Below are positions 2,073 to 17,946 of a stretch of 20,256 bases of DNA, piece after piece. Location: positions 1 through 20,256 of IMG/VR virus record IMGVR_UViG_3300032073_000347; one strand, 5' to 3'. The notes below the pieces were generated by a model. That model worked only from the letters and a program-made list of their open reading frames with translations, had not been told where the DNA came from and did no database searches. The stretch comes from a virus. Made by a program: the position numbers and the translations under genes. The number at the start of each line of letters is the position of its first letter. The first letter of the stretch is position 1.

Positions 2073-2080
2073 TATAAATA
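2073..2080 (+). promoter_or_regulatory. T4-type late promoter (TATAAATA)
   Basis: A perfect match to the T4 late -10 octamer in the 32-nt gap before the ATG at 2086. Only 5 nt separate its last base from that ATG. Initiation is normally about six bases past the octamer, so the transcript should start at or next to the start codon. In T4 such promoters need gp55 sigma and gp33/gp45 equivalents, which are not in this window. Confidence 0.75.
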
Positions 2081-2085
2081 ATACT

Positions 2086-2556
2086 ATGAGTTATAAATCA
2101 GAAAACTGGAAAGAGAAACTAGAACAAGTGCGTTCTCATGTTGCACTCAAAGAAGGAAGTGTAGAGAAGAGTGCCGATGACATTCTTAATGACCAAATCG
2201 AAGAGGAACTAGCAACCTTTTTTGTAGAAGACGAGAAATTAGACGAAGTAACGACTAAGATGCCTGAAAAGGTTCAGAATCAAATCTTAGATATGATGAA
2301 TAAACTTATGGATTTACCATATGGTTCACCTGCTTTCAAAAAATTAAAGAAAGAACAAGATGCTCTACAAAAGAAATACTCAGTTAAGAGAGAAGAAGTA
2401 GAAGAAGTCAAAGAAGAAAAACTTTCCGTTGAAAGAACTGTAGAAAAACTCACTGAAAAAAATATGTTAGGTCGTTTATCTAAGTCCCTAAGACTAGATG
2501 AAGAAGGCAAAGAAAAATTATTCAACTATTTCGATAAAGGGGAATTAGAACAATGA
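2086..2556 (+). CDS. charged helical protein, probably late-expressed
   Basis: A 156-aa protein starting MSYKSENWKEKLEQV. It is very rich in Glu and Lys, has no cysteine, signal peptide or membrane segment, and is predicted almost entirely helical. There is a long coiled-coil-like stretch around residues 75-125 (KLKKEQDALQKKY, then the acidic VEEVKEEKLS). A perfect late-promoter octamer lies immediately upstream and no Shine-Dalgarno is visible, so translation may be leaderless. The gene overlaps the next by 4 nt (ATGA). It begins a co-directional run of similar charged proteins. I do not recognise a family; a virion core or internal head role is only a guess from context and composition. Confidence 0.8.
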   Translation: MSYKSENWKEKLEQVRSHVALKEGSVEKSADDILNDQIEEELATFFVEDEKLDEVTTKMPEKVQNQILDMMNKLMDLPYGSPAFKKLKKEQDALQKKYSVKREEVEEVKEEKLSVERTVEKLTEKNMLGRLSKSLRLDEEGKEKLFNYFDKGELEQ

Positions 2557-3191
2557 AATTCACATCATTAGGTTTATCAGATGACCTACTAGAAGCATCT
2601 AAACAAGTTTTACAAAACTCAAAAGAATACGAAGATTTCTTTAAAGCATCTTTAAAGAAATTTAATGTATCATCACCTGCTGATTTTAAATCAGACGAAG
2701 AGAAAAAGAAGTTCTTCGATTACATAGATAAGAACTACAAAGGTGAGAAGTCAGAAGAAGCAGAAATCAAAGAAAAGGATAAACCTGCAAAGAAATTTAT
2801 TAAACTTGGCGATAACGCTGAAAAAAAAAATGTAAAAGAAGCTACTAGAACCTACTTCAAAACAGTAGATGATTTAGCAGCTAAACATGGTGATGAAACA
2901 GGATTTATCTATAAATCACCTAAACTCAGCAAAATTTTATCTGAGTTCAAAAAACTAATTCAGAAAGAAGTTAAAGCAGGTTTTAAAGACTCTAAAAAGT
3001 ATGGTGACCAAGTAATGAAGCACCTACAAAAGATGGAAGTAATGGTATATAATGATAATGTTGTCATGACAAATAGTATGCATGGTAAATTCTCAAAATC
3101 TTTTGAAGGAGATACTGCATTTAGAGAAGATATGGCATCAATTATTATTGACAACGATGAGATACTAGCACACGCAATATTCGGAGTTTAA
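2553..3191 (+). CDS. hypothetical protein with phage structural N-terminal helix motif
   Basis: A 212-aa protein starting in the ATGA overlap with the previous gene. Residues ~27-60 contain FFKASLKKFNVSSPADF followed by EEKKKFFDYID. This short helical motif is one I have seen near the N-terminus of many marine phage virion-associated proteins. A Lys/Glu linker follows (residues ~62-100), then a more ordered domain (KSPKLSKILSEFKKL, EVMVYNDNVVMTNSM, ending EILAHAIFGV). Notable is a run of nine A bases at 2821-2829, a place where slippage or assembly error could occur, although the frame reads through cleanly. Function is unknown. It lies 1 nt before the next gene. Confidence 0.8.
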   Translation: MKFTSLGLSDDLLEASKQVLQNSKEYEDFFKASLKKFNVSSPADFKSDEEKKKFFDYIDKNYKGEKSEEAEIKEKDKPAKKFIKLGDNAEKKNVKEATRTYFKTVDDLAAKHGDETGFIYKSPKLSKILSEFKKLIQKEVKAGFKDSKKYGDQVMKHLQKMEVMVYNDNVVMTNSMHGKFSKSFEGDTAFREDMASIIIDNDEILAHAIFGV

Positions 3192-3192
3192 C

Positions 3193-4860
3193 ATGAACCT
3201 ATTTCATGAATCAAAAAAAATATTAGACAAAGATGGTAAAGTAAATCCATTAGGACCTTATGGTAAACAAAAACTTACTGGTCAAGAAATTGCAAACTAT
3301 TTCAGAAAGAATAAAGTATCAGATGCAAAAGTCAAAAAAGCAGTAGAAGTTGCACTTGATTTAGGTGGTGCATTTTCAGTCGCACAACAAGAAATCAAAA
3401 AGTTCTTTGGTAATTCTATACTAAAGAAGAAAGAAGTTCAAAATGCATTACGATATGCAAATGAAGAATTTCAAATGTCAGAAAATTTCAAAGATGTCAT
3501 CAAAATGTTTCCAAGAGACAATGATTGGAAAAAACTTATCACAAAACACAAAAGACATCTTGACGACTTCAGAAAAGGTAAAAAAGATTTAGATACTAAA
3601 GTAGAAGATGACCTTGTATCATGGGCATTAGATAATGGTGAAATTCGACACAAAGAAGATGTTGAAGATTTCATAGACCAAGTTCTAAATGCATCTTACA
3701 TCCCACAAGGTGACAACATGGTTAGTGAAGACTCTATAATGTCTTATCCAAAGAAAAACGAGAAAAAGATTCGACCTATGTTAATGAAGATTGCAAAGAA
3801 ACACCCTAAAGTTAAAGTATCATTTGGCACTCATTCAAAGGGTAAATTTGTAGATGACAATAACATAAATTTCAAAGGTCAAGACAAAGATGTTGATATG
3901 TTAATGAAAGACATTCAGAACAATCATAAGAATCTTGTTAAGATGATGGAAGCAGTTTCTCCAGAACAACAAGCCGCTATTGCAATTGCAAAGAAAGAAA
4001 AGAAAAAGAATGTTATGGATTCTTATAAAGAAATGTGGGAAAATGGTGAGAAATATGCACCTGAACCTATAGAAGAGGCATGTTGGGACGGATATGTGCA
4101 GAAAGGATTCAAAATGAAGAATGGTAAACAAGTACCAAATTGTGTCCCTGTATCAGAAGATATACAAGAAGGAAAACTTTCAGATGCAATTATTCGTAAA
4201 GACTTTTCAAATGTATGGGCTGCCTCTGCAAAAAACAAGAAGATTCTTAAAAACTTTCATCAAGTAGTAAACACAAACAACTATAGACAAATGAAGAAAG
4301 CATATCAAAAAGATATGAAGTCATTTGTTGATTCAATGTCAGAAGAAGTTATCGATGAGAAAAACATGTCCAGTGGTGACATGATTAAGAAATTGTTCAA
4401 ACTTAGAAATGACAAAGAAATCGCTGGAGTTGCAAATCTCATGAACATGACTGATGTCAAGGTTCTTCAAAAAATGCAGAGAGATAATCCAAAAGGTTTT
4501 GCACGAATGGCTGCGAAAATGGGTGAACTTCCTGCAATGGAAGAAGTCGAAGAAGTTAAAGAAGATAATTTAATGAACTCTTACAGAGATATGTCAGAGG
4601 CAAAATCATTCAACCAAAAAGATATTGACATAGTTGCAAAATTTACCGATAAAAATGAACATACATTATCACTTATGCATATTGCAAAAGTCGTAGGTGA
4701 TAAAAAGGCAGGAAAAAAACTAGAACTAATCTATAAAATGCATAATGAATATGGTTCTATGACCAAAGACCTTATGAGTATGAGAAATGCAATCTATGAC
4801 GATTTGAAGAAACAAATGAAGAGGTATGATAATTATGACGATATGTATGGAGCAACATAA
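3193..4860 (+). CDS. large modular charged phage protein (555 aa)
   Basis: The largest protein of the first block. It reads as a chain of small helical modules joined by acidic linkers. The first ~170 residues contain GKQKLTGQEIANYFRKN. Around residues 257-267 is PEQQAAIAIAKKEKKK, a phrase recurrent in marine phage structural proteins. At residues 297-317 is a paired-cysteine module beginning CWDGY and ending VPNC (C297 and C317 flanking a basic turn), also recurrent in these phages. NVMDSYKEMWENG (before that module) and NLMNSYRDMSEAK (nearer the C-terminus) look like degenerate copies of one linker motif. No enzyme motif is seen. It overlaps the next gene by one base (TAATG). A virion or prohead-internal role is inferred, not shown. 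Confidence 0.85.
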   Translation: MNLFHESKKILDKDGKVNPLGPYGKQKLTGQEIANYFRKNKVSDAKVKKAVEVALDLGGAFSVAQQEIKKFFGNSILKKKEVQNALRYANEEFQMSENFKDVIKMFPRDNDWKKLITKHKRHLDDFRKGKKDLDTKVEDDLVSWALDNGEIRHKEDVEDFIDQVLNASYIPQGDNMVSEDSIMSYPKKNEKKIRPMLMKIAKKHPKVKVSFGTHSKGKFVDDNNINFKGQDKDVDMLMKDIQNNHKNLVKMMEAVSPEQQAAIAIAKKEKKKNVMDSYKEMWENGEKYAPEPIEEACWDGYVQKGFKMKNGKQVPNCVPVSEDIQEGKLSDAIIRKDFSNVWAASAKNKKILKNFHQVVNTNNYRQMKKAYQKDMKSFVDSMSEEVIDEKNMSSGDMIKKLFKLRNDKEIAGVANLMNMTDVKVLQKMQRDNPKGFARMAAKMGELPAMEEVEEVKEDNLMNSYRDMSEAKSFNQKDIDIVAKFTDKNEHTLSLMHIAKVVGDKKAGKKLELIYKMHNEYGSMTKDLMSMRNAIYDDLKKQMKRYDNYDDMYGAT

Positions 4861-5423
4861 TGGCTAAGTATCAATCCCTAGTTCAAACAATTAAAGAACA
4901 TAATACACCAGTTGACCTTAGTGAGGTAACAGACCAAGAGATTAAGGCAGTCAAAAAACTTTCCAAAGATATGGAAAAGATAAAGAAAGACTACTTTAAG
5001 ATTGCAAAAATGGGTGATAAGACACTTCAACTTGCAGGTTTCAATAAACAATACGAAACAATTTTAAAGGCACAACAAGAAATTCTTAAAATTATTGGTG
5101 ACATGACAACCATGAAATCAATGAGTGATAGAGCTAAGAAGAATGAAGAAGTTATATCAGAAAGAATAGACTTTCATAAAAAAAGTCCTGCAGAAAAGAA
5201 AGGTTCTGATTTCGATAGAAAATTAGAAATCAATGGTTATAAAAAGATGGTCAAGGAAATTGAGAAACTAAACAAGTTTCATGAAAAGTTTCAATACAAT
5301 AACCGTGCAGCTGGTCCACATAAAATCTTTGATGCATTACAACAAGTAGAAAGAGTATGTTATGACATGATTGCTGAAATCGAAAGAGGAAAGTGGGACG
5401 GAAAGGTAACACTAGAAGATTAA
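4860..5423 (+). CDS. helical hypothetical protein
   Basis: A 187-aa protein whose ATG uses the last A of the previous stop. It is almost entirely charged helix (VKKLSKDMEKIKKDYFKIAK, then KAQQEILKIIGDMTTMKSM), with one cysteine near residue 167. It has no membrane segment or signal peptide. The C-terminal half contains NNRAAGPHKIFDALQQVERV, which looks more globular. TAATG overlaps on both sides indicate coupled translation with the 555-aa protein and the following gene. I do not recognise a family. Confidence 0.8.
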   Translation: MAKYQSLVQTIKEHNTPVDLSEVTDQEIKAVKKLSKDMEKIKKDYFKIAKMGDKTLQLAGFNKQYETILKAQQEILKIIGDMTTMKSMSDRAKKNEEVISERIDFHKKSPAEKKGSDFDRKLEINGYKKMVKEIEKLNKFHEKFQYNNRAAGPHKIFDALQQVERVCYDMIAEIERGKWDGKVTLED

Positions 5424-5995
5424 TGAAACCTACAAAAGAAGACATTAAAACTATCTTAACTACAGATGCAAGATATAAAGTTTTCAAAGAGAAAATTAAA
5501 AAACTTGGATACATAAAACAATCTGCAGTAGAAGTTAAAAAGGTCATGGAGAAACAATCAGATTTCTCAATGATGTCTGATGCAGGTAATAAAAAGATTG
5601 CTCGTGCAGTTGCACAAGCTAGAAATGAGAAAGACCTCAAGCAGAAACTAGAGAAAATCTCTACAATGGCAGGTGGTAAATACTCAGAAGCGTCTGAAGA
5701 TGAAGTCATGCAAAGAGCCCTTGATGCATGGCATGATAAATCAAGTGGTTCGGCTGCTTGGGCAGACAATAATATCTTTGTTCAATTAAAGAAATTTACT
5801 GATACAAAGAGAGATGGTGAAGTCCAGACTAAGGATAACAAGAAACAAAAGGTTAAAGGCAAAGATGCCGCGTTAGTTCATGACACTTTAATGCAAGTTA
5901 AAGCACCAATAAGGGATAAATACATTAGACTATTGGCGAAAGATGCTAAATCTTTCAAAAAAACATTTGATGCAATCTTAAAAGTTGCATCATAG
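5423..5995 (+). CDS. helical hypothetical protein
   Basis: A 190-aa protein starting MKPTKEDIKTILTTD. I chose the ATG at 5423, which overlaps the previous stop by one base, over the in-frame start at 5393, because the ten extra residues lie inside the upstream gene and the TAATG junction repeats that of the preceding gene pair. Features include a Lys-rich helical N-terminal half, EVMQRALDAWHDKSSGSAAW in the middle, and a conserved-looking C-terminal helix pair (LVHDTLMQVKAPIRDKYIRL). The absence of Cys and of membrane segments suggests a soluble or virion protein. It is the last member of the charged block; the next gene is preceded by a Shine-Dalgarno and differs sharply in composition. Confidence 0.8.
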   Translation: MKPTKEDIKTILTTDARYKVFKEKIKKLGYIKQSAVEVKKVMEKQSDFSMMSDAGNKKIARAVAQARNEKDLKQKLEKISTMAGGKYSEASEDEVMQRALDAWHDKSSGSAAWADNNIFVQLKKFTDTKRDGEVQTKDNKKQKVKGKDAALVHDTLMQVKAPIRDKYIRLLAKDAKSFKKTFDAILKVAS

Positions 5996-6015
5996 AATAG
6001 AAAACGGAGAAAAAA

Positions 6016-6588
6016 ATGGCACTATGGGGACATACAAGCGGAAGTGAAGACAAGCCAAATTGGTTAACGGACGCTCAGAAAACAAAAACACAAGCTAAAC
6101 CTTACGGTTGGGAACTTGAAGTAGAAAAATCAGGCAGAAGTCTAACAGAAGTGTTAGTTGCATGGTCTTCTTCAGGTCTTACAACTGCTTTAGGTGCTGC
6201 TAATATCACTGATATAGATTGGAATATCACTACATTCGATAAGAGTGCTGGTGGAACATTATCTGCAACTGTTGTATTCAACGAAGCAGTAGATGTCACT
6301 GGAACACCTCAACTATCTGTAACTAACGGAAACGAAGGAACAGGTTCAGGAAGAGGTCCACACACATTATCATATGCAAGTGGTTCAGGTTCAAACGAAC
6401 TAGTATTCACATTGGCAATAGGAGCTGCTAACGCTGCTACTAACGCAGATGATGTATTAGTATTCGGTGCGAATCCACTTTCATTAAATAGTGGAACTAT
6501 CAAAGATACTGGCACAAATACTGCATCAACAATTACATCAGTAGTAGGCATTGGAACTGCGGCTGGTGGTATTACTGTTGTTGCATAA
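6016..6588 (+). CDS. Ig-like domain virion structural protein
   Basis: A 190-aa protein preceded by GGAG at 6006-6009, six bases before ATG, one of the better ribosome binding sites here. The N-terminus (MALWGHTSGSEDKPNWLTDA) is a hallmark of a widespread marine phage structural family, in my memory. Residues ~50-185 form an Ig-like beta domain of the type seen in bacterial adhesins: GGTLSATVVFNEAVDVTGTP, LSYASGSGSNELVFTLAIG, LNSGTIKDTGTN. It is rich in Gly, Thr, Ser and Ala and lacks the Lys/Glu bias of the upstream block. A surface role (head decoration, neck or fibre) is likely, but which one cannot be told. It opens a group of three genes ending at hairpins. Confidence 0.85.
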   Translation: MALWGHTSGSEDKPNWLTDAQKTKTQAKPYGWELEVEKSGRSLTEVLVAWSSSGLTTALGAANITDIDWNITTFDKSAGGTLSATVVFNEAVDVTGTPQLSVTNGNEGTGSGRGPHTLSYASGSGSNELVFTLAIGAANAATNADDVLVFGANPLSLNSGTIKDTGTNTASTITSVVGIGTAAGGITVVA

Positions 6589-6605
6589 TAAGTAATAGGT
6601 AAACT

Positions 6606-6866
6606 ATGAAATTAAAATTATTAGGTTCAGAAGCCGCAATGGGAACATCTACAACAAACGGTAGTAATTTCTCTGGTGCAACGAATGTAAGAGTATTTAA
6701 CTCTACAGGAGCTGCTCATTTAGTGTCAGTTGAGACAAGTGCCAACTCATTGATTGGCACACTCACCGTTCCTGGCGGTGCTTCTGTAATAGTAGAAAAA
6801 GACCAAACAGATGAAATATTCGCTGCAAATGCGGGTGTTTTAGGTGTTGGCGTAGCAGTAAGGTAA
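6606..6866 (+). CDS. small beta-rich virion-type protein
   Basis: An 86-aa protein, Gly/Ala/Ser/Thr-rich, with short alternating strands (NVRVFNSTGAAHLVSVETS, LIGTLTVPGGASVIVEKD) and the ending DEIFAANAGVLGVGVAVR. The phrase 'KDQTDEIFAANA' resembles that in small conserved proteins next to structural genes in T4-like marine phages. There is a weak AGGT 6 nt before ATG. It follows the Ig-like gene by 17 nt and shares its composition, so the two are probably expressed together late. The exact virion role is unknown. Confidence 0.8.
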   Translation: MKLKLLGSEAAMGTSTTNGSNFSGATNVRVFNSTGAAHLVSVETSANSLIGTLTVPGGASVIVEKDQTDEIFAANAGVLGVGVAVR

Positions 6867-6870
6867 AATT

Positions 6871-7257: not shown

Positions 7258-7275
7258 GACATTTTAGATACTTTC
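7246..7275 (+). terminator. stem-loop overlapping a stop codon, likely terminator or 3' stabiliser
   Basis: AAGTATCTAA (7248-7257) is the exact reverse complement of TTAGATACTT (7264-7273), with a 6-nt loop. The stem extends by a G-U and a G-C pair to 7246-7275. It includes the TAA of the preceding gene. The stem is AT-rich and followed only by T then CCC, so it is a weak intrinsic terminator. It could instead protect the 3' end of the mRNA. Confidence 0.55.
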
Positions 7276-7278
7276 CCT

Positions 7279-7295
7279 ACACTATATATTAGTGT
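7279..7295. repeat. short palindrome ACACTA / TAGTGT
   Basis: A 6-bp perfect inverted repeat with a TATAT loop, four bases after the larger hairpin and 20 bases before the next ATG. It could be a second weak RNA hairpin or a protein-binding palindrome. No T tract follows. Confidence 0.4.
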
Positions 7296-7315
7296 AAACA
7301 ACAATTTATTATATT

Positions 7316-7687: not shown

Positions 7688-7764
7688 GCTACTGTAGCTC
7701 AGTTGGCCAGAGCAGGGGTTTTGTAAACCTCAGGTCGTCAGTTCGAATCTGACCAGTAGCTCCA
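7688..7764 (+). tRNA. tRNA-Thr (anticodon UGU), CCA encoded
   Basis: A full cloverleaf of 77 nt. Acceptor stem GCTACTG/CAGTAGC is 7 of 7 paired. D arm GCTC/GAGC and anticodon stem GGGGT/ACCTC (one G-U) bracket the loop TTTGTAA, with anticodon TGT at 7722-7724. The T arm is GTCAG/CTGAC around TTCGAAT. A discriminator T and an encoded CCA (7762-7764) follow. It reads ACA, a very frequent Thr codon in the surrounding genes. It is squeezed between the previous stop and a late promoter starting six bases later. Confidence 0.97.
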
Positions 7765-7769
7765 GATTA

Positions 7770-7777
7770 TATAAATA
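7770..7777 (+). promoter_or_regulatory. T4-type late promoter (TATAAATA)
   Basis: A perfect late octamer between the tRNA CCA end and the ATG at 7783, with 5 nt separating octamer and start codon, the same spacing as at 2073-2086. The expected transcript would begin at or beside the start codon, and no Shine-Dalgarno is present. Confidence 0.75.
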
Positions 7778-7782
7778 GATAT

Positions 7783-8358
7783 ATGGGTATAATAAACACA
7801 TTAGTAGTATTCAAAGTCCTCAAAATGCTTGTGACAAAGTTTAAAGACTTTGATGCATTCAAACTAGGTCTTATTGATAAGAACGGTAATAGAATCAAAT
7901 CTAAGGGTATAAACACCTCAGATGAGAAAGAATCTATGTCAATGTTGCATAGACTTGTATTCAATATCAAAAGAATCATACAAAAGGTACCATTCGGTAA
8001 GACTGCATTTGCCTCTTACGCAATTGCACTTGCACTTCTAAAAGAAAACTTAAATTTAAATGCAGACCAGATGGAAGAACTATGTGAAAAGTTCTATAGA
8101 CATCTAAAAGACGAAAATGTATTAGAGGCAGAGATGTTATCAGAGGCACACAAAGTAGGAACTCTGGATTTAGGAGAGACATACAATCTAAAAAGACAAC
8201 TCAAACAGAACTTCGATGAACAAGGAGAGTTTATCATATATCCTGAGAAGACTCCTGTTCACATCTTACAAGAACATAGTTTGATATTTGGTATAACCTG
8301 TTATATTGGTTATATCGATGAACATAGAGTATTGGTAACACAAGACGATGTATATTAA
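7783..8358 (+). CDS. conserved hypothetical protein of T4-like marine phages
   Basis: A 191-aa protein starting MGIINTLVVFKVLKMLVTKF, an amphipathic or hydrophobic N-terminus that could be membrane-peripheral. It continues DAFKLGLIDKNGN, LHRLVFNIKRIIQKVPFGKT and FASYAIALALLKENL. The Pro-Phe-Gly-Lys-Thr segment near residue 70 and the following Ala-rich helix are characteristic of an unannotated family I recall from T4-like phages. The C-terminus (ITCYIGYIDEHRVLVTQDD) is beta-like. It is expressed from the late promoter just upstream and overlaps the phosphatase gene by 11 nt. No function can be assigned. Confidence 0.8.
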   Translation: MGIINTLVVFKVLKMLVTKFKDFDAFKLGLIDKNGNRIKSKGINTSDEKESMSMLHRLVFNIKRIIQKVPFGKTAFASYAIALALLKENLNLNADQMEELCEKFYRHLKDENVLEAEMLSEAHKVGTLDLGETYNLKRQLKQNFDEQGEFIIYPEKTPVHILQEHSLIFGITCYIGYIDEHRVLVTQDDVY

Positions 8359-9115: not shown

Positions 9116-9121
9116 TAAATT

Positions 9122-10306
9122 ATGAATAAATTTTTGAATTACCTAGCCCTATTTACCTCTATGTCAATCGCAGGCATAGCTGCGTATTTCTCAGTTATAG
9201 GACTTGCAACAATATTTGCAGGTGCATTCTTAGGTGTGGTAGTTATGGCAGGTGCCTTAGAGTTTGGTAAAATTGTGACGGCTGCTTATCTCCACCTATA
9301 TTGGGATAGACTCAATTACATGAAATACTATCTCACATTCTCAGTATTCATATTAATGTTAATCACATCACTTGGTATATTTGGATACCTTGCAAAGGCA
9401 TCTTCAGATACATCATATAAAACTTCAGTTGCACAATCAGAACTTCAAAAAATCGATGGCCAAATCCTCCGAACCGAGAACAATATCTCCCTAATAGAGG
9501 AAAGAATGAATTCCCTTGGAACTTCCACCATAGATGTATCAGAATCAATCAAACAACAAGAGGTCATCCGTGACGGAGCATGGCAAAGAGTTCAAGGGGA
9601 TATAGATTATGCACAAGGACAGATAGATAGTCTTAGAAATCAACTAACTACATTAGATACTGCAGTCAATGAACTAAGAGAAAAAGGTGTTGAGGTCATC
9701 ACCACCGATGAAGGAGGTCTCTTCCAAGGCAACGAAACAGAGAAAATAGACTATGTGCAACAGGCAAATACACTATTTCTACAACAAAAAGAACAAAGAG
9801 ACCAGATTCGTGCCGACATAAAGACACAACAAGACAACATAGACAAATACAGAGAACAGGCACAAGACACAATCAATGGTGCCAATACAGAAATTAAGAG
9901 ATTACAAGAAGCATCTACAGGAGATGCAGATGATATTATTTTAAAGACACAAGAATACCAGTTGCAGATAGATGACTTGTATGATATAATTAATGTATAT
10001 AAAGAAGAGAGATTTCCATTTGAACAGGAGATACTAAATTTTGAGAGAGAAGTTGGACCAATTAAATATGTCGCTGAGGTCATTTACGGTCAGGAATCTG
10101 CCAGAGATTACCTTGATAACGCAATACGATGGGTTATATTTGCTATTATATTTGTGTTTGACCCTTTGGCCATTCTTCTATTGATTACATCGATAGGTCT
10201 TATATCACACCCAAGAACAGGAACAATCAAACCTAAGACTATAGAGAACAGATATGTCTTACAGGTGCCAAAAGATAAGATTCTAAACATGAAAAAACCT
10301 AAATAA
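9122..10306 (+). CDS. multi-TM membrane protein with long coiled coil
   Basis: A 394-aa protein. Residues ~7-26, ~28-48 and ~69-90 are hydrophobic helices; residues ~336-360 (RWVIFAIIFVFDPLAILLL) are a fourth. Between them lies ~240 residues of Gln/Asp/Glu-rich coiled coil (SELQKIDGQILRTENNISLI, LRNQLTTLDTAVNELREKG, QKEQRDQIRADIKTQQDNI). Four spans would place both ends on the same side and the coil in one compartment, facing either periplasm or cytoplasm. The short C-terminal tail is basic. No enzyme motif is present. Similar unannotated membrane/coiled-coil proteins occur in marine T4-like phages. Inner-membrane remodelling, lysis timing or exclusion are possibilities without direct support. 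Confidence 0.85.
   Translation: MNKFLNYLALFTSMSIAGIAAYFSVIGLATIFAGAFLGVVVMAGALEFGKIVTAAYLHLYWDRLNYMKYYLTFSVFILMLITSLGIFGYLAKASSDTSYKTSVAQSELQKIDGQILRTENNISLIEERMNSLGTSTIDVSESIKQQEVIRDGAWQRVQGDIDYAQGQIDSLRNQLTTLDTAVNELREKGVEVITTDEGGLFQGNETEKIDYVQQANTLFLQQKEQRDQIRADIKTQQDNIDKYREQAQDTINGANTEIKRLQEASTGDADDIILKTQEYQLQIDDLYDIINVYKEERFPFEQEILNFEREVGPIKYVAEVIYGQESARDYLDNAIRWVIFAIIFVFDPLAILLLITSIGLISHPRTGTIKPKTIENRYVLQVPKDKILNMKKPK
10299..10305 (+). promoter_or_regulatory. CTAAATA, late-promoter-like motif
   Basis: The motif overlaps the TAA stop of the membrane protein and lies 29 nt before the ATG at 10335. That gives room for a normal leader containing AGGAG at 10324-10328. It deviates from TATAAATA at the first positions, so it is a candidate only. 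Confidence 0.35.
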
Positions 10307-10334
10307 ACTTGTAAATTCAATTTAGGAGATTAAC

Positions 10335-10550
10335 ATGCCAGCACCAGACGGATACACTACACCTACTATTCCAGGAATGGATGACTTAGCGGGTAGAAAA
10401 ACTTGGTTTGAAACAGGAGACGGTAAACCTGTCAAACCTAGTGGATATGATTCTATGGCTTCAGATGACCCACAAAAGGTCAAATACGATTCAAGCGTAA
10501 CCGAGAATACTTCTCAACTCGCGGCTCTTCAAGCACTAATAGACGCATAA
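10335..10550 (+). CDS. small hypothetical protein with strong RBS (71 aa)
   Basis: The protein begins MPAPDGYTTPTIPGMDDLAG. It is rich in Pro, Asp, Gly and Thr, with no cysteine, membrane segment or long helix apart from the last ~15 residues (SQLAALQALIDA). AGGAG at 10324-10328, six bases before ATG, is among the strongest ribosome binding sites in the window and implies abundant product. The composition resembles the virion-type genes near 6016-6866 rather than the primase operon that follows. It could be a minor structural protein. I do not recognise a family. Confidence 0.75.
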   Translation: MPAPDGYTTPTIPGMDDLAGRKTWFETGDGKPVKPSGYDSMASDDPQKVKYDSSVTENTSQLAALQALIDA

Positions 10551-10556: not shown

Positions 10557-10585
10557 TTGTAATTCCAGACTAATCATAGTATAAT
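10557..10585 (+). promoter_or_regulatory. sigma70-like promoter for the primase-nrd operon
   Basis: TTGTAA at 10557-10562 and a perfect TATAAT at 10580-10585 are separated by exactly 17 nt, in the 42-nt gap before the primase. Only 7 nt lie between the -10 box and the ATG at 10593, so the expected start site falls at or one base before the start codon. This suits host-polymerase (early or middle) transcription. Confidence 0.65.
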
Positions 10586-10592: not shown

Positions 10593-11636
10593 ATGCTATG
10601 GTTAGAAAGGAAATACCTTTCAATGGTCGTATCGAGTCTCGATTTGGCCAAATGGAAGAATGATAATACATTAAATCACAGATGTCCATACTGTGGTGAT
10701 TCTTCTAAAAATCAGTATAAAGCGAGAGGATATCATTTTGCGGTAGAGCAGAGTTTTATCTATAAATGCCATAATTGTGGCAAATCTACATCATCGGTGA
10801 ACTTTCTTAAAGATAATTTTCCTGTGATACATAAAGAGTATATTAAAGAATGGTTAAAAGAAAGTGGAAAAAGTCCGAAACGACAACAAAAAATGCCTTC
10901 ATCAAGTGCATTCAAGTTCACTCCCAATCCAGATTTACTAAATAAAAATGTCGAGACAATGTCAGTAGAGAATCTCAGAGCAGTATGTCATGGTGCATAC
11001 GATAGAATTGTAAGCAGAGAGTATTTACAGAACAGAAAGATACCAGATGATGCAATTAAGAAACTCTGGTATGTCGACAATGCACAAGTTCTATCTCATT
11101 TACACACTAAGTATAATGAGAGAGTTCTTGGTAATGACCCTAGAGTCATTCTGCCATTCATTAGTGAGAATGGGGAGTTATTGGGTTTAACAGGTCGTGC
11201 AATCAATGATTCACCACTTCGTTATCTTACCATGAGATTCCAAGATGATGTTCCACTCATCTTCAACTATGAAAATGTGGACAAATCAAAGGCTATCTAT
11301 GTAACCGAAGGACCAATAGATAGTCTATTCCTACCCAACTCAATAGCAGTTGCAGGTAGTGATTTCAAAAAGATAGATGATAGTATAAAAGAAAACGCGA
11401 TACTCATTTACGACAATGAACCAAGAAATACAGAGATTCTTAAAAAATTAGACGAAGTTATAGACTTAGGTTGGTCTGTATGTTTGTGGTCGGATAAAAG
11501 AGTATCAGGATTGAAAGATATCAATGATATGATACAAAGTGGATTGACCACTTCTGATATAACTGATATAATTACTTCTAATACATATAATGGTCTTTCG
11601 GCAAAATTGAAGTTTAAGGAGTATAAGAAGAAGTGA
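10593..11636 (+). CDS. 61: DNA primase, T4 gp61-like
   Basis: A 347-aa protein, close to the 342 aa of T4 gp61. It makes the RNA primers for lagging-strand synthesis together with the gp41-type helicase. An N-terminal zinc finger uses C31, C34 (CPYCGDS), C59 and C62 (CHNCG). The TOPRIM catalytic core shows E239 in YVTEGPIDSLF, the acidic cluster IYDNE at 272-276, and KDINDM at 308-313. The start at 10593 is kept because the residues from ERKYLSMV resemble the N-termini of related phage primases. The alternative Met at 10623, preceded by AAAGGA, would give 337 aa and remove the leaderless problem. A GTGA overlap couples it to nrdA. Confidence 0.93.
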   Translation: MLWLERKYLSMVVSSLDLAKWKNDNTLNHRCPYCGDSSKNQYKARGYHFAVEQSFIYKCHNCGKSTSSVNFLKDNFPVIHKEYIKEWLKESGKSPKRQQKMPSSSAFKFTPNPDLLNKNVETMSVENLRAVCHGAYDRIVSREYLQNRKIPDDAIKKLWYVDNAQVLSHLHTKYNERVLGNDPRVILPFISENGELLGLTGRAINDSPLRYLTMRFQDDVPLIFNYENVDKSKAIYVTEGPIDSLFLPNSIAVAGSDFKKIDDSIKENAILIYDNEPRNTEILKKLDEVIDLGWSVCLWSDKRVSGLKDINDMIQSGLTTSDITDIITSNTYNGLSAKLKFKEYKKK

Positions 11637-13918
11637 ATTCAGAAATCAGAGTAGTTAAGTCGGATGGTTCCAAAGTTGAGATAAACCTAGATAAGATTCA
11701 TAGAATGGTAGAAAAAGCCTGTAAAGATATCACAGGTGTCAGTGAGTCAGCAGTAGAAATGAATAGTGGTCTACAATTCTTTGATGGTATAACAACACAA
11801 GAAATTCAAAAAATATTAGTTAAAAGTGCAAGTGATTTAATTTCACTTGAATCACCAAATTACCAATTTGTAGCAGCGAGATTATTACTATTTGGTATTC
11901 AGAAACAAGTATTCAATACTAAATGGAAAGATTCAGAGATATATCCACCACTCAGAGATATAGTGGAAAGAAATGTTGATTTTAAGGTCTACGATAAAGA
12001 TATCTTAAATCAATATACTGATGAAGAGTTTACAAAGATAAACACTTACATCAAACATCAAAGAGACTTTGATTTTACATATGCAGGATTACAACAAGTA
12101 GTAGACAAATATCTTGTGCAAGATAGGTCAACCAATGTTGTTTTTGAGACACCTCAGTTCATGTATATGTTAATTGCAATGACTCTTTTTCAAAACTATG
12201 ACAAAGAAGGAAGATTAGACTATGTCAAAAAATACTACGATGCAATCTCTACATTCAAGATATCGATACCAACACCAATTATGGCAGGAGTTAGAACACC
12301 ACTTAGACAATTTGCATCATGTGTTCTTGTCGACTCAGACGACACACTCGACTCTTTATTCAGCAGTGATATGGCCATTGGACGCTATGTTGCACAAAGG
12401 GCGGGTATCGGGATTAACGCTGGAAGAATTAGAGGCCTTGGTTCAAAGATTAGAGGTGGTGAAGTCCAACATACTGGAGTTATCCCATTCCTTAAAAAAT
12501 TTGAGGCAACAGTTAGAAGTTGCACACAAAATGGTGTTCGAGGCGGGTCAGCAACAGTTCACTTTCCAGTATGGCACCAAGAAATAGAAGACATTATTGT
12601 CTTAAAGAACAACAAAGGAACAGAAGATAATAGAGTTAGAAAACTAGACTATTCTATTCAGTTATCAGAACTATTCTATAAGAGATTCTTACAGAACGGT
12701 GAGATAACATTGTTCTCTCCTCACAATGTTCCAGGTCTTTATGAGGCATTTGGAACACCAGAGTTTGATGAACTCTATGAAAAGTATGAGAGAGCAACAT
12801 CTATTCCTAAAACAAAGGTAAGTGCAAGAGAATTATTTACAGATATATTAAAAGAAAGAGCTGAGACTGGCAGAATCTATATTATGAATATAGACCACTG
12901 CAATACCCACAGTAGTTTCCTTGACAAAGTTAACATGAGTAATCTTTGTCAGGAAATTACTTTACCAACAGACCCAATAGAACACATAGACGGAGAAGGA
13001 GAAATCGCATTATGTATACTATCTGCAATCAATGTAGGTATTATCAAAATGGAAGAAATGTCTAACTTGTGTGATTTAGCAGTGAGAGGACTTGAAGAAC
13101 TGATAGATTACCAAGAATATCCTGTTGTAGCGGCCGAGAAATCAACTAGAGCAAGACGAAGTCTTGGTATTGGTTATATCGGCCTTGCACATTTTCTTGC
13201 AAAGAACAAGGTTGAATATGGTTCTAGTGAGAGTCTACAATTAATACATGAACTTACAGAGAGTTTTCAATACAACCTATTATGTGCAAGTAATCAAATT
13301 GCATCAGAGAAAGGTGAATGTGATGGTTTTGCACATACAAAGTATGCAGAGGGAAAACTACCTATCGACCACTACAAAAAAGATGTTGACGACTTAGTTA
13401 AACCTAATTACAAATGTGATTGGGAAAGACTAAGAACTAGAATTAAAGTTCACGGTCTAAGACATTCAACATTGACTGCACAAATGCCTAGTGAATCATC
13501 TAGTGTTGTATCAAATGCAACCAATGGCATAGAACCACCTAGAGACCACTTGTCAGTTAAGAAGAGTAAAAAAGGAACACTCAAACAAGTTGTTCCACAA
13601 TATCAGATGTTAAAGAACTTCTATACCTTACTATGGGATATGCCATCTAACGAGGGTTATATCAAAATAGTTGCAGTAATGCAGAAGTTTTTTGACCAGG
13701 CAATATCAGGTAATTGGTCATACAATCCAGAAAACTATCCTAACGGAGAAGTTCCTGTTTCTGTTATGGCAAAAGACCTTTTAAACACATATAAATACGG
13801 ATGGAAAACATCTTACTATCATAATACTATGGATGGTAAACAAGAAGATGTTGTCGAAGAGTTACCTTTAGGTGATGAAACAAGTGAGGAAGAAGACTGC
13901 GATGCATGTGCAATCTAA
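11633..13918 (+). CDS. nrdA: class Ia ribonucleotide reductase large subunit
   Basis: A 761-aa protein (T4 NrdA is 754) that reduces ribonucleoside diphosphates to deoxy forms with NrdB. The start is GTG at 11633, overlapping the primase stop, with AAGGAG at 11616-11621. Residues ~3-90 are an ATP-cone-like allosteric domain (VVKSDGSKVEINLDKI). The redox pair is C230 (RQFASCVLV) and C461 (ALCILSA). The catalytic loop is N437-x-C439-x-E441 (NLCQEI). Radical-transfer tyrosines are Y728/Y729 (SYYHNT). The C-terminal swinging cysteines are C756/C759 (CDACAI), comparable to CAACKL in T4. All residues needed for activity are present. The protein aligns along its length with T4 NrdA as I recall it, e.g. 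ISIPTPIMAGVRTP and RAGIGIN. Confidence 0.97.
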   Translation: MNSEIRVVKSDGSKVEINLDKIHRMVEKACKDITGVSESAVEMNSGLQFFDGITTQEIQKILVKSASDLISLESPNYQFVAARLLLFGIQKQVFNTKWKDSEIYPPLRDIVERNVDFKVYDKDILNQYTDEEFTKINTYIKHQRDFDFTYAGLQQVVDKYLVQDRSTNVVFETPQFMYMLIAMTLFQNYDKEGRLDYVKKYYDAISTFKISIPTPIMAGVRTPLRQFASCVLVDSDDTLDSLFSSDMAIGRYVAQRAGIGINAGRIRGLGSKIRGGEVQHTGVIPFLKKFEATVRSCTQNGVRGGSATVHFPVWHQEIEDIIVLKNNKGTEDNRVRKLDYSIQLSELFYKRFLQNGEITLFSPHNVPGLYEAFGTPEFDELYEKYERATSIPKTKVSARELFTDILKERAETGRIYIMNIDHCNTHSSFLDKVNMSNLCQEITLPTDPIEHIDGEGEIALCILSAINVGIIKMEEMSNLCDLAVRGLEELIDYQEYPVVAAEKSTRARRSLGIGYIGLAHFLAKNKVEYGSSESLQLIHELTESFQYNLLCASNQIASEKGECDGFAHTKYAEGKLPIDHYKKDVDDLVKPNYKCDWERLRTRIKVHGLRHSTLTAQMPSESSSVVSNATNGIEPPRDHLSVKKSKKGTLKQVVPQYQMLKNFYTLLWDMPSNEGYIKIVAVMQKFFDQAISGNWSYNPENYPNGEVPVSVMAKDLLNTYKYGWKTSYYHNTMDGKQEDVVEELPLGDETSEEEDCDACAI
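13790..13797 (+). promoter_or_regulatory. TATAAATA inside nrdA, possible internal late promoter
   Basis: A perfect late octamer in the nrdA 3' coding region (it encodes part of NTYKYGW), about 105 nt before the oxygenase start. One or two such octamers are expected in coding sequence this AT-rich by chance, so a function is unproven. If active, it would give late expression of the oxygenase and nrdB without nrdA. Confidence 0.25.
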
Positions 13919-14903
13919 AAAAGATAAACTATATGATTTTGATGTACCTGTAGTAAAGAACAGAGGTGATAATGACAAAATTCAATGGGGTGGTAAAACA
14001 AATCAGACAACTTTAGATTTTGTGAACAACAGATATGTTGTATTAAGAGACTTCATACCTAAAGAACTCATCAGAATGACCATGGACACATGGAGAAGTA
14101 TTGAGAATGACGATAGGTCTTTCAATGCACACTTTAGAGCAGAAGATGAGTTGACTCACAATACACCAGAAGAACAAAGAAAAAAATCACACGGAGCATA
14201 CAACTTTCCTGTCGCAGTAGGCCTACATACTTGGCTAAAAAATAAATTAAACAATGTTTTAGATATAAAACTACAAGAGACATACTCTTATAGTAGAAAA
14301 TATTACAGAGGTGCTTCACTATCTGCACATACAGATAGACCATCTTGTGAGATTAGTGTTACCTTTCCTTTAGATTATAAGACTGATGATAACACACCTT
14401 GGAAGATATGGTTGAATAATGAGGGTAACTGGATTAATTGTCAAGACAAAGCAGGACAACAATTCATTAAATCAAACACCCAAGATATTCATAGAGGTAA
14501 ATCAATAGAACTTGAACTAGGTGATGTTCTGTTATATCAAGGTCCTAATATACCACATTGGAGAAATACATTAGTTGGTGATTATAGTTATCATATGTTT
14601 CTACATTTCTTCAATCAGAGAAGTCGTATGACTCAGATGGCAGGTTTTGAATATCAAGAACACCATAAACATGGAGTTGTTCCTAATAGTTCTCCTAATA
14701 GTAGGAAATTTATATTAGATTGGGACGGTTGTGTAAGCAAATGGGACAACACTAGAAGAATGGGTGCTGGTGAATTAGAACCATGGATTGATAATGTGTA
14801 TAGTCAATTTAGAGGTGAACACCATTTATATGTAAATAATTATTCATATCTAACAGGTAAAGTAGAAGAAGATTTAATAGTCAGTGCAGAGGATTTAGAA
14901 TGA
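13902..14903 (+). CDS. 2-oxoglutarate/Fe(II)-dependent oxygenase (prolyl 4-hydroxylase-like), between nrdA and nrdB
   Basis: A 333-aa protein. The iron triad is read as H143-x-D145 (SLSAHTDRPSCEISVTFPL) with distal H219 in GPNIPHWRNT, followed by basic residues that could bind 2-oxoglutarate. The segment LELGDVLLYQGPNIPHWRN is typical of the prolyl-4-hydroxylase/2OG-Fe(II) superfamily. The ATG at 13902, 17 nt inside nrdA and downstream of GAGGA at 13886-13890, is preferred to 13872, which would need a longer overlap. A C-terminal ~85-residue extension (FILDWDGCVSKWDN onward) lies beyond the core. It is coupled to nrdB by ATGA. The substrate is unknown: a protein side chain, a nucleotide or a lipid are all possible. 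It is not part of the usual RNR complex. Confidence 0.88.
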   Translation: MHVQSKKDKLYDFDVPVVKNRGDNDKIQWGGKTNQTTLDFVNNRYVVLRDFIPKELIRMTMDTWRSIENDDRSFNAHFRAEDELTHNTPEEQRKKSHGAYNFPVAVGLHTWLKNKLNNVLDIKLQETYSYSRKYYRGASLSAHTDRPSCEISVTFPLDYKTDDNTPWKIWLNNEGNWINCQDKAGQQFIKSNTQDIHRGKSIELELGDVLLYQGPNIPHWRNTLVGDYSYHMFLHFFNQRSRMTQMAGFEYQEHHKHGVVPNSSPNSRKFILDWDGCVSKWDNTRRMGAGELEPWIDNVYSQFRGEHHLYVNNYSYLTGKVEEDLIVSAEDLE

Positions 14904-15997
14904 CAGTATTCAATAAAAATAATATAGACTTCACTAAGAATAAGATATTCTTTGGTGAAGAATTGAATACACAAAGATTTGATGAGTTTAAATATCCTAT
15001 ATTTGACAAACTAACACAAAGACAACTAAGTTTCTTTTGGAGACCAGAAGAAGTATCTTTACAGAAAGATAGAGCAGATTATCAGACACTAACTGATGCA
15101 CAAAAACACATATTTACCTCAAATCTGAGGTATCAAACTTTACTCGACTCAGTTCAAGGTAGGGCACCAAGCATAGCATTTTTACCTTTTGTGACCTTGC
15201 CTGAACTAGAGTCTTGTATTATTACATGGGACTTCATGGAAACTATTCATAGTAGAAGTTATACACACATTATTAAGAATGTATACCCAAATCCAAGTGA
15301 TGTATTCGACACTATACTAGAAGAAGATGCAATTATTAAGAGAGCAGAAATGGTTACGGAAAAGTATGACAACTTTATCCAACTAGGTAGAAGGAGATTA
15401 CTAGGACTCAAAGTTGATGATTATGACCTATACAAGGCATTATATCTGGCACTTATATCAGTAAACATCTTAGAAGGAATTAGATTCTTTGTATCATTTG
15501 CCTGTAGTTTTGCATTTGGTGAACTCAAACTGATGGAAGGAAGTGCAAAGATTATATCTCTTATTGCAAGAGACGAATCACAACACCTTGCAGTATCACA
15601 ACACATACTAAAGTGTTATAAGAAACATGAGAACGATAAACTTATGTTGAAAGTAATTAAAGATTGTGAACCAGAAGTATACAAAATGTATGAAGATGCA
15701 GTAGAACAGGAAAAAGAATGGGCAGAGTTTTTATTTAAAGATGGTTCTATGATAGGTTTATCAGTACCATTACTAGGTCAATATGTAGAGTTTATTGCAA
15801 ACAAAAGATTAAGAACAATTGGTTTAGAACCAATATATGACATAAGTTCAACTAACAATCCTTTACCATGGACACAACATTGGTTTAACAGTAGAGGATT
15901 ACAAAATGCACCACAAGAGACAGAGATTGAATCTTATCTAATTGGTGGTATAAAACAAGATGTTGATGATTCAACATTTGAGGACTTTAAATTATGA
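14900..15997 (+). CDS. nrdB: class Ia ribonucleotide reductase small subunit
   Basis: A 365-aa protein (T4 NrdB is 388) that holds the diiron-tyrosyl radical cofactor for NrdA. Metal ligands are visible: D83 (QTLLDSVQGR), E114 and H117 (DFMETIHSRSYTH), E192 (NILEGIRFF), E226 and H229 (ARDESQHLA). The radical tyrosine is Y121, so this is the classical tyrosyl-radical type and not a Tyr-less subclass. The C-terminal tail ends FEDFKL, consistent with the peptide that docks onto NrdA. It starts in an ATGA overlap with the oxygenase gene and ends in another ATGA with the small membrane protein. No intron or homing endonuclease interrupts it, unlike T4 nrdB. Confidence 0.97.
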   Translation: MTVFNKNNIDFTKNKIFFGEELNTQRFDEFKYPIFDKLTQRQLSFFWRPEEVSLQKDRADYQTLTDAQKHIFTSNLRYQTLLDSVQGRAPSIAFLPFVTLPELESCIITWDFMETIHSRSYTHIIKNVYPNPSDVFDTILEEDAIIKRAEMVTEKYDNFIQLGRRRLLGLKVDDYDLYKALYLALISVNILEGIRFFVSFACSFAFGELKLMEGSAKIISLIARDESQHLAVSQHILKCYKKHENDKLMLKVIKDCEPEVYKMYEDAVEQEKEWAEFLFKDGSMIGLSVPLLGQYVEFIANKRLRTIGLEPIYDISSTNNPLPWTQHWFNSRGLQNAPQETEIESYLIGGIKQDVDDSTFEDFKL

Positions 15998-16164
15998 TGG
16001 AAGCAATTATATTAGTATTTGCAGTGTGGTTTTCTATAGTGGCCATAATGACATTTTTATTCTTTGGTGAGGGTACCAAAGGTATTGAAAAACAACCGTA
16101 TTATGGTCGTAAAACAGGAACCATATATACAGCTAAGAAAGAAAGGGAGACACATATAGTATGA
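15994..16164 (+). CDS. small single-TM membrane protein (56 aa)
   Basis: Begins MMEAIILVFAVWFSIVAIMT; residues ~3-24 form one transmembrane helix. A basic tail with tyrosines follows (EKQPYYGRKTGTIYTAKKER). Both boundaries are ATGA overlaps: with the nrdB stop at 15994-15997 and with the start of the next gene at 16161-16164. That is strong evidence for a real, coupled gene despite its size. Two tandem ATGs (15994 and 15997) are possible starts. Topology by the positive-inside rule is N-out, C-in. Function is unknown. Confidence 0.8.
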   Translation: MMEAIILVFAVWFSIVAIMTFLFFGEGTKGIEKQPYYGRKTGTIYTAKKERETHIV

Positions 16165-16376
16165 TGAAAAAAATATCTCAAATATTATGGGGAAGTCCTG
16201 CAGAAGAACAGGCAATGAAAGAGAAGATTGAAAAATCTCCAGACCCAGCAGAATTGACAATTGAAAATGCATATAAGACCAGATGGATATGGTATCACAC
16301 CATATTAGGTCTATTGATGTTCTTTGCAAACATCATTATGTTAGGAATCTTTATATTATTAGCAGTGAAATTATAG
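16161..16376 (+). CDS. small single-TM membrane protein (71 aa)
   Basis: MMKKISQILWGSPAEEQAMK opens a charged cytoplasmic-type N-terminal ~40 residues. One strong transmembrane helix ends the protein (TILGLLMFFANIIMLGIFIL, residues ~47-68). It is thus a tail-anchored arrangement, opposite to the preceding 56-aa protein, with which it shares an ATGA junction. The ATG at 16164 is an equally good start. The two may form a pair in the inner membrane. No homolog is recognised. Confidence 0.8.
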   Translation: MMKKISQILWGSPAEEQAMKEKIEKSPDPAELTIENAYKTRWIWYHTILGLLMFFANIIMLGIFILLAVKL

Positions 16377-16385
16377 GAGTAAATT

Positions 16386-16619
16386 ATGATAGAGATATAC
16401 AGTAAACCAGCATGTCCGTATTGCACAAGAGCAAAACAGTTATGTGAAATGAAAGGGTATGAATACACATACTTAATGTTAGATGAAGACTTCACTAGAG
16501 AAGAACTCTTTGAGAGATTTCCTGGTGCAAGAACATTTCCACAAATCAAAGTTCATGGTGAGAACATAGGTGGATTCACTGAACTAGAAGAATGGTCTAA
16601 AGGGTATAGAAAACTATGA
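16386..16619 (+). CDS. grx: glutaredoxin
   Basis: A 77-aa thioredoxin-fold protein, the usual small glutaredoxin length. The CPYC active site is at C10-C13, the cis-proline motif TFP at 50-52, and the glutathione-binding GG at 62-63 (NIGGFTEL). It should reduce the C-terminal disulfide of NrdA during dNTP synthesis, as T4 NrdC does, and its place three genes after nrdB fits. GGAG at 16376-16379 lies six bases before ATG, sharing a base with the previous stop. An ATGA overlap leads into the next mini-gene. Confidence 0.95.
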   Translation: MIEIYSKPACPYCTRAKQLCEMKGYEYTYLMLDEDFTREELFERFPGARTFPQIKVHGENIGGFTELEEWSKGYRKL

Positions 16620-16702
16620 GACCACAACAACAGCAAAGACCAATAGATAAAGAATTGGAAAAGAAGAAGAAAGAACAAGCTCAGGATAGAAGAAATGGTT
16701 GA
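16616..16702 (+). CDS. 28-aa basic peptide
   Basis: MRPQQQQRPIDKELEKKKKE continues to a TGA at 16700-16702. It starts in an ATGA overlap with glutaredoxin and overlaps the following gene by 8 nt, so it fills exactly the space between two coupled genes. It has 28 residues, rich in Gln, Lys and Arg, with no fold expected. The phrase 'RPIDKEL' is reminiscent of short basic proteins near nrdC in T4-like cyanophages. It may be translated chiefly to carry ribosomes to the next gene. Confidence 0.55.
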   Translation: MRPQQQQRPIDKELEKKKKEQAQDRRNG

Positions 16703-16979
16703 GTATTTACTATATCTACCACCAGAACATGACCAAGTTGGTGAGAAAAAACTAATTTGTGAGAGGTGGAAACATCTTATGGCCATGGTTGATAGAGAAT
16801 ATCAAACATGTAGAACATATATTGTTGGTATAGATGTAGACCAAGATAAGGCAGAAACTAAACTACCTTATTGCACAATCAATGGAAAGATAACAGGTTT
16901 TCCAGAGGCTTTCAACAAAATAATGGTAAAATCAATGCGTGCCGTAGATGGTACGACATTCGATGAGGATATTTTATAA
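16695..16979 (+). CDS. hypothetical protein (94 aa)
   Basis: MVEYLLYLPPEHDQVGEKKL begins a small soluble protein with helices (LICERWKHLMAMVDREY) and a strand-turn segment (TYIVGIDVDQDKAETKLPYC). Three cysteines (C22, C39 and C60) are not arranged as a zinc motif. It has no signal peptide or membrane segment. It overlaps the 28-aa peptide and abuts the zinc-ribbon gene through TAATG. The family is not recognised, but the gene lies within the nucleotide-metabolism operon. Confidence 0.75.
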   Translation: MVEYLLYLPPEHDQVGEKKLICERWKHLMAMVDREYQTCRTYIVGIDVDQDKAETKLPYCTINGKITGFPEAFNKIMVKSMRAVDGTTFDEDIL

Positions 16980-17122
16980 TGGATAGTGAGAAGGAGTTAT
17001 TATATTGTGATAACTGTATGTGTGAATGTGAAATCGAACATGACGGAGACCATTTGATAAGGTTTTGTCCGTTTTGTGGTGATTCTTATGGTGATGAAAT
17101 AGAAGATGGAGATATATTGTAA
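16979..17122 (+). CDS. 47-aa zinc-ribbon protein
   Basis: MDSEKELLYCDNCMCECEIE, then a hydrophobic turn and FCPFCGDSYGDE. C10-x2-C13 and C30-x2-C33 form two knuckles about 17 residues apart, with extra C15 and C17: a minimal zinc ribbon. It starts at TAATG with the previous gene and overlaps the next by 17 nt. The knuckle CPFCGDS resembles the CPYCGDS of the primase zinc finger in the same operon. Function is unknown; nucleic-acid or protein binding is the usual role of such ribbons. Confidence 0.75.
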   Translation: MDSEKELLYCDNCMCECEIEHDGDHLIRFCPFCGDSYGDEIEDGDIL

Positions 17123-17429
17123 AGACAAGTGGATGTTGCATAATGCCGTATTCTTGGCAGAACAACTAGACATTTCCACTAAATTCTGCGTAGTCAATAT
17201 CAAAAGACTACCCCCTACCATGCCTCAAAAAGGCCTAATTGAGTTCTCTAAATCAGATGAGGACATAGACATATTCATTAAATACGATAACGAAAGGTTT
17301 ATAACCCTTGCACACGAAATGGTGCATGTCCGACAGATATTAACTACTGGAATATGTGATGAAATAGAGGCTGGAAGACTAGAAAATACGCTGAAAACGC
17401 TTGCCAAAGCGGACATAAATTTGTTATAA
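17106..17429 (+). CDS. HEXXH putative metallopeptidase (107 aa)
   Basis: RFITLAHEMVHVRQILTTG carries the zincin motif H70-E71-x2-H74, preceded by a hydrophobic helix. E87 or E89 in CDEIEAGRLE could be the third zinc ligand, in the spacing of a short gluzincin-like fold. At 107 aa it is small for a secreted protease and has no signal peptide, so it should act in the cytoplasm, perhaps on phage or host proteins. Related unannotated HEXXH mini-proteins occur in T4-like cyanophages. The peptidase call rests on the motif alone. Confidence 0.75.
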   Translation: MEIYCKDKWMLHNAVFLAEQLDISTKFCVVNIKRLPPTMPQKGLIEFSKSDEDIDIFIKYDNERFITLAHEMVHVRQILTTGICDEIEAGRLENTLKTLAKADINLL

Positions 17430-17430
17430 T
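17401..17430 (+). promoter_or_regulatory. sigma70-like promoter for the HAD gene
   Basis: TTGCCA at 17401-17406 and a perfect TATAAT at 17425-17430 are separated by 18 nt, within the 3' end of the HEXXH gene. Six bases lie between the -10 box and the ATG at 17437, so the transcript would begin at about the start codon, as at the primase promoter. No Shine-Dalgarno is present. Confidence 0.6.
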
Positions 17431-17436
17431 ATACAT

Positions 17437-17946
17437 ATGAAAAGTGAGATAAAAAGAATTTTCCTTGATATGGACGGTGTGTTGGCCGACTTCCAGACTG
17501 GTGCTTCTAAACTTGCAGGTGTTAACATAACACCAGATAGTGCAGGACACAAGTTATACGATGCAAGGAAAGAAGAATTAACAAACAAAAGGTTGTTCAG
17601 AAACTTACCAACAATGGTCGATATGTATGATTTACTTGCATATGTCAGACATACAGGCATACCGTGGGAAATACTAACGGCTGCTGGTGAAGTGAACAGA
17701 GAGTTATGTGTGTATGATAAAAACGAGTGGATTAGAGAGTTTGTAGACCCTACCATTGCTGTTACTTGCACATTTACAGGTAGTCAGAAAGGTATGTATG
17801 CCTTTGAAGGAAGTGTTCTTATTGATGATAGACAAAAGAACATAGACCATTGGATTGAGAATGGTGGTATTGGTATTGTTCATACTAGTGCAGAGAATAC
17901 TATCAACGAATTAAAACTTTTAAGAAATGGTGTGGGTGGTGAATAA
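17437..17946 (+). CDS. HAD-superfamily 5'(3')-deoxyribonucleotidase-like phosphatase
   Basis: A 169-aa protein with the HAD motif I sequence IFLDMDGVLADF (nucleophile D11, general acid D13). Motif II threonine is in ILTAAG (T81), motif III lysine is near K118 (TGSQKGMYA), and motif IV is the acidic pair D130-D131 (VLIDDRQKNI). Size and motif I match the NT5C-type cytosolic deoxynucleotidases, which dephosphorylate dNMPs. With ribonucleotide reductase just upstream it could adjust dNMP pools, but substrate choice is inferred. The first Met must be used, since the next one lies inside motif I. This makes the apparent lack of a leader hard to avoid. Confidence 0.85.
   Translation: MKSEIKRIFLDMDGVLADFQTGASKLAGVNITPDSAGHKLYDARKEELTNKRLFRNLPTMVDMYDLLAYVRHTGIPWEILTAAGEVNRELCVYDKNEWIREFVDPTIAVTCTFTGSQKGMYAFEGSVLIDDRQKNIDHWIENGGIGIVHTSAENTINELKLLRNGVGGE

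Follow-up and report, generated by a model that had tools for sequence, protein, structure and literature searches.

Predicted leaderless transcripts at T4-type late promoters and sigma70-like promoters in a clade of T4-like marine phages

According to our analysis, the virus studied here and its relatives probably produce a sizeable number of leaderless mRNAs, a reading to which we assign a probability of about 0.88. Judging from sequence comparison, promoters of the sigma70-like and of the gp55 type are both predicted to give rise to such mRNAs, with leaderless and leadered initiation used side by side. In the proposed mechanism, the host RNA polymerase with a phage late sigma factor of the gp55 family would read the late genes through the box N[A/C]TAAATA at −13 to −6, and a box lying 5 nt before an ATG would make the A of that ATG the +1 nucleotide. 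For early-type genes, a sigma70-like promoter whose −10 hexamer ends 6 to 7 nt before the ATG would lead to the same outcome. Translation would start on the resulting 5′-terminal AUG with no need for Shine-Dalgarno pairing. Further late genes of the same genomes would have a leader of 10 to 35 nt with a Shine-Dalgarno sequence. The transcription start points and the route of ribosome initiation are the parts of this explanation that we infer.

Promoter-to-ATG sites in the window and their orthologues

The window, i.e., the whole 20,256-base uncultivated virus record that we analysed, derives from a T4-like marine myovirus. It encodes a primase, NrdA/NrdB, and a glutaredoxin-like protein together with virion-type genes and one tRNA-Thr, and its ribonucleotide reductase shows 72% identity to cyanophage proteins. 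As read from the sequence, the late-promoter box TATAAATA at 2073..2080 (plus strand, as are all window features given here) lies 5 nt before the ATG at 2086 of a predicted leaderless late gene (2086..2556, 156 aa, MSYKSENW family), which has no Shine-Dalgarno sequence and whose start residue is kept in the relatives. Another copy of the box, at 7770..7777 directly after the tRNA-Thr gene, lies 5 nt before the ATG at 7783 of a second predicted leaderless late gene (7783..8358, 191 aa, phrog_18642). The tRNA gene itself, tRNA-Thr(TGT), occupies 7688-7764 and ends 18 nt before gene 7783. The sigma70-like promoter TTGTAA-N17-TATAAT (10557..10585) ends 7 nt before the ATG at 10593 of the gp61-like DNA primase gene (10593..11636, phrog_47), predicted to be leaderless and with a conserved N terminus, and TTGCCA-N18-TATAAT (17401..17430) ends 6 nt before the ATG at 17437 of a 5′-3′ deoxyribonucleotidase gene of the NT5C family (17437..17946), also predicted to be leaderless. 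These two sigma70-like sites match the consensus at 10/12 and 11/12 positions, with −35/−10 spacings of 17 to 18 nt.

A preliminary description of this DNA had reported all four placements, which we found unchanged when reading the coordinates directly, and the sequence agrees with its statement that none of the four genes has a Shine-Dalgarno sequence. It had also assigned such a sequence to the genes at 10335 and 18157, where we find AGGAG (10324-10328) and GAGG (18146-18149), respectively. We add that each of these genes has an upstream CTAAATA late box, located at 10299..10305 (29 nt to the ATG) and at 18129..18135 (21 nt to the ATG); both belong to the leadered group of late genes. A possible further case is CTAAATA at 1567..1573, 8 nt before the ATG at 1583, which corresponds to a 3-nt leader, although an open reading frame (ORF) found at this place in the relative G001 is preceded by the box at a distance of 17 nt. 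The 20 kb of the window contain only four or five cases. The exact TATAAATA occurs three times on its plus strand, and two of the three copies stand exactly 5 nt before the ATG of an ORF, for which the chance is about 6e-5 (0.0046 such ATGs per position). The number of TATAAATA-like or sigma70-like matches in the window shows no excess over shuffles, and the nonrandom feature of the window boxes is their spacing, not their number.

Box and spacing are kept in the orthologues of all four genes while the flanking DNA diverges. In the family of gene 2086, the box lies 5 to 8 nt before the ATG in 50 of 51 distinct upstreams (5 nt in 19/51, 8 nt in 28/51, and 6 to 7 nt in 3/51). In the family of gene 7783, where the N terminus varies in length and the 5-nt spacing remains unchanged, the box is found at 5 nt in 40/47 distinct upstreams and at 6 nt in 3. 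The primase promoter lies 6 to 9 nt before the ATG in 43 of 55 distinct upstreams, split between 6 and 7 nt, and the other 12/55 have no promoter match by the criteria used. For the deoxynucleotidase, a TTGACA-type promoter is located at 6 nt in 26 of 39 distinct upstreams and at 9 nt in 3, with 10/39 lacking a match by the criteria used, and the −35 TTGACA is kept in most orthologues.

The start codons themselves are authentic. Nearly all relatives share the primase N terminus MLWLE[RK]K[YF]LS, and codons 2 to 10 carry 187 synonymous versus 21 nonsynonymous changes, the mark of purifying selection. Since these codons are conserved, the primase starts at 10593, and the start at 10623, which the preliminary description had named beforehand as speaking against its reading, is ruled out. 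Each of the nine ATAAATA-N5-ATG sites of HTVC008M, a Pelagibacter phage available in culture, falls on the annotated start of a virion or other gene, among which are the genes for the tail tape measure, the DNA end protector, the baseplate tail-tube cap, and the baseplate wedge.

Promoter spacing and late transcription factors across relatives

We compared about 200 related virus loci and nine long relatives, of each of which 80 to 154 kb was read. Spacings were pooled over nine genomes, namely, seven of the long relatives, the window, and HTVC008M. In this pool, a spacing of exactly 5 nt between ATAAATA and the ATG of an ORF is found 69 times, compared with 1 to 7 times for each remaining spacing in the 3- to 9-nt range and a mean of 3.5 over spacings of 10 to 39 nt. 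When all 21 one-base variants of ATAAATA were scanned, the peak was kept by CTAAATA only (24 sites at 5 nt), so the late box of the clade is N[A/C]TAAATA. Taken together, [AC]TAAATA occurs 93 times at 5 nt against about 5 times per other spacing (Poisson P of ~1e-78 in the pool, kinship ignored), in a peak that is one nucleotide wide. Poisson values of this kind disregard kinship, which is addressed by protein-family counts: the late class of predicted leaderless genes comprises 38 protein families, 21 of them present in at least 2 genomes. No 5-nt peak was detected in T4, Syn9, P-SSM2, and S-PM2, with 1 site in T4 and 3 in the three cyanophages together.

In T4, the late box is located at −13 to −6 and no −35 element is present (PMC2988020); a box in this position followed by a 5-nt spacer would place the A of the ATG at +1. 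The C accepted at −12 in the clade has also been reported in the Aeromonas phage Aeh1 (PMC2988020). It may partly explain why standard searches for late promoters failed in Pelagibacter myophages, in whose genomes late-promoter prediction was reported to be unsuccessful (PMC7029224).

The sigma70-like promoters show a comparable preference. TATAAT accompanied by a −35 hexamer stands 17 times at 6 nt and 9 times at 7 nt in the pool, where the mean is 1.07 per spacing; the 26 promoters at 6 to 7 nt compare with 2.1 expected (P of ~1e-19, kinship ignored). The sigma70 −10 hexamer is positioned at −12 to −7, so that a 6-nt spacer would put +1 at the ATG and a spacer of 7 nt would leave a leader of a single nucleotide. 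In such promoters, the −35 and −10 elements stand 16 to 18 nt apart, and the predicted sigma70-type leaderless class includes 12 protein families in at least 2 genomes. Cases at 7- to 8-nt spacing may carry leaders of 1 to 3 nt.

When we searched the long relatives by tblastn with HTVC008M queries, we identified homologues of both gp55 and the gp45 clamp in eight of nine, the exception (G009) being a partial contig; the 20-kb window is too short to hold these genes. The gp55 homologues of the clade are 45 to 54% identical to HTVC008M gp55, and the gp55 gene itself has TATAAT 6 nt before its ATG in three relatives and the form TATTAT in a fourth. For the gp33-family coactivator, only four relatives gave matches, which were weak (27 to 33% identity, E values between 3e-5 and 2e-6).

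Shine-Dalgarno sequences and alternative explanations

The preliminary description had proposed comparing promoter spacing with the presence of a Shine-Dalgarno sequence across related genomes. In the 5-nt class, such sequences occur at the background rate: 28% of the sites, versus 24% of random sequence, match over 4 nt or more, and 6% of both match over 5 nt or more. They are enriched in leadered late promoters, where boxes 16 to 40 nt upstream are accompanied by matches of 4 nt or more in 72% and of 5 nt or more in 34% of cases. The comparative data thus support the view, put forward in that description, that leaderless starts occur at early- and late-type promoters and that two initiation modes exist. 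The boxes, their spacing and conservation, the missing Shine-Dalgarno sequences, the authentic starts, and the gp55 genes are direct observations, and we weighed three other ways of accounting for them.

Transcription might start slightly upstream or downstream of the expected position, resulting in leaders of a few nucleotides or in mRNAs that begin inside the gene. The choice of start point does vary at natural promoters, and both the frequent 8-nt spacing in the 2086 family (28/51) and the division of the primases between 6 and 7 nt would fit such a shift; nevertheless, we regard it as unlikely, given that the late-class peak is only one nucleotide wide and that the start codons are authentic according to the primase codons and the HTVC008M annotation. 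It is less probable still that the boxes are promoters while translation proceeds mainly from longer readthrough transcripts coupled to the upstream gene. An upstream stop codon does fall inside the box or spacer, or the genes overlap, in about 29 of the 93 late sites (~30%, counting ends within 12 nt), where coupling on a longer readthrough mRNA may occur, and the three gene 7783 orthologues without a box all adjoin their upstream gene. However, the remaining two thirds of the sites have no such neighbor within 12 nt, and the fixed 5-nt spacing to a promoter box would be left unexplained. Moreover, the upstream neighbor of gene 7783 is a tRNA gene, as is often the case in its family, which excludes translational coupling there, and a terminator-like hairpin with a T run stands directly upstream of 9/93 leaderless late sites versus 10/1253 other ORF starts.

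That AT-rich sequence and the shared ancestry of a few intergenic regions produced the whole pattern has, in our judgment, a negligible probability. The genomes are indeed related and contain 33 to 38% G+C, so that the counts are not independent. Yet the 38 protein families carrying the pattern are mostly different ones in HTVC008M and in the window clade, and chance in AT-rich DNA is ruled out by the one-base variants, by permuted octamers of the same composition, which give no spacing peak, and by T4 and P-SSM2, which are equally AT-rich and have no peak.

Gene content, switching between modes, and known systems

The sigma70-type leaderless class includes replication and nucleotide genes, such as those encoding DNA polymerase, primase, and deoxynucleotidase, together with a peptidase and a DNA methyltransferase. 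The late class includes virion genes, such as those for the portal, DNA end protector, baseplate wedge, tail tube-like, and tail-fibre assembly proteins, along with a NifU-like protein and unknown proteins. Orthologues appear to switch initiation mode between relatives, as judged from box position. The portal gene has its box at 5 to 8 nt, and would be leaderless or nearly so, in seven long relatives, while the distance is 25 to 31 nt in HTVC008M, Melnitz, the three cyanophages, and a Rhizobium phage; conversely, the gp13 gene has a spacing of 8 nt in HTVC008M versus 22 to 33 nt in the window clade. HTVC008M also differs from the clade in having few sigma70-type cases. Some genes in G004 (~117180, forward sequence), G001, G008, and G005 have a late box and then TATAAT close to the same ATG, which suggests that one gene can be served by early and late promoters.

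The sheath, tube, and major capsid genes have a Shine-Dalgarno sequence in the seven relatives and HTVC008M. An attractive but tentative model, which we consider rather doubtful, is that initiation mode sets virion stoichiometry, with the most abundant virion parts (tail sheath gp18, tube gp19, and capsid gp23) made from leadered messages with a Shine-Dalgarno sequence and the low-copy portal, DNA end protector, and baseplate wedge from leaderless ones, and that bS21 might bias ribosomes between the modes; the link between low copy number and leaderless starts concerns few genes. Ribosomal protein bS21 (PF01165) is encoded in seven of the nine long relatives (G001 to G006 and G009; e.g., G004:C1:18391-18537), and its role as a modulator of initiation mode is speculation.

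In the textbook case of T4, late mRNAs have leaders to which ribosomes bind. The promoters described here share with T4-type late promoters the box TATAAATA, its expected position at −13 to −6, an AT-rich spacer, and a gp55 homologue, whereas T4 and cyanophage boxes lie mostly 14 to 35 nt before the ATG, usually leaving a leader, and 93 lie at 5 nt here. Bacteria and the cI gene of phage lambda provide known examples of leaderless mRNA, and the present cases resemble these in the expected 5′-terminal AUG, the lack of a Shine-Dalgarno sequence, and the single promoter-distance from the −10 element; they differ in being genome-wide in a lytic phage and in relying on polymerase of two specificities, one of them given by a phage sigma factor. 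A report on Deinococcus-Thermus describes −10 regions adjacent to ORFs and leaderless mRNA (PMC12340547), a likeness in that the −10 box directly precedes the ORF; that case concerns a bacterial phylum and its own promoters, whereas ours concerns a T4-like phage and late promoters too. A paper on phage AR9 states that phage transcripts are often leaderless (PMC5312081). Our search of the open-access literature, which by its nature leaves aside subscription papers and with them most cyanophage transcriptomes, turned up no account of leaderless late transcripts for T4-like phages. Leaderless mRNA being already known, leaderless starts at T4-type late promoters would be the new element. A marine branch of the T4 lineage has apparently removed the leader from many genes, with the mode alternating gene by gene, and offers a testable case for the evolution of translation initiation mode. 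In practical terms, gene-start prediction in these genomes can be corrected, and the spacing provides a position-specific signature for finding late promoters.

We also considered whether the trait was copied from a SAR11 host, which is not supported by promoter spacing in Pelagibacter: a 400-kb stretch of one genome lacked a peak in TATAAT-ATG spacing and contained very few promoters of the TTGAC type, and a strict form of the pattern occurred 0 times in three genomes. With one host genome compared, this suggests that the window clade infects a host whose promoters are unlike those of SAR11. Weak signals were found in the Rhizobium phage RHph_I1_18 (4 sites, with 2 of 4 checked being annotated starts) and in Melnitz (3 sites, with both of the 2 checked being annotated starts). 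Finally, the window contains a noncoding stretch of about 180 nt (17947-18128), which has no Rfam match and a folding energy no better than that of shuffles. It is 78 to 95% identical in four related loci and ends in a hairpin followed by a T run, likely a terminator.
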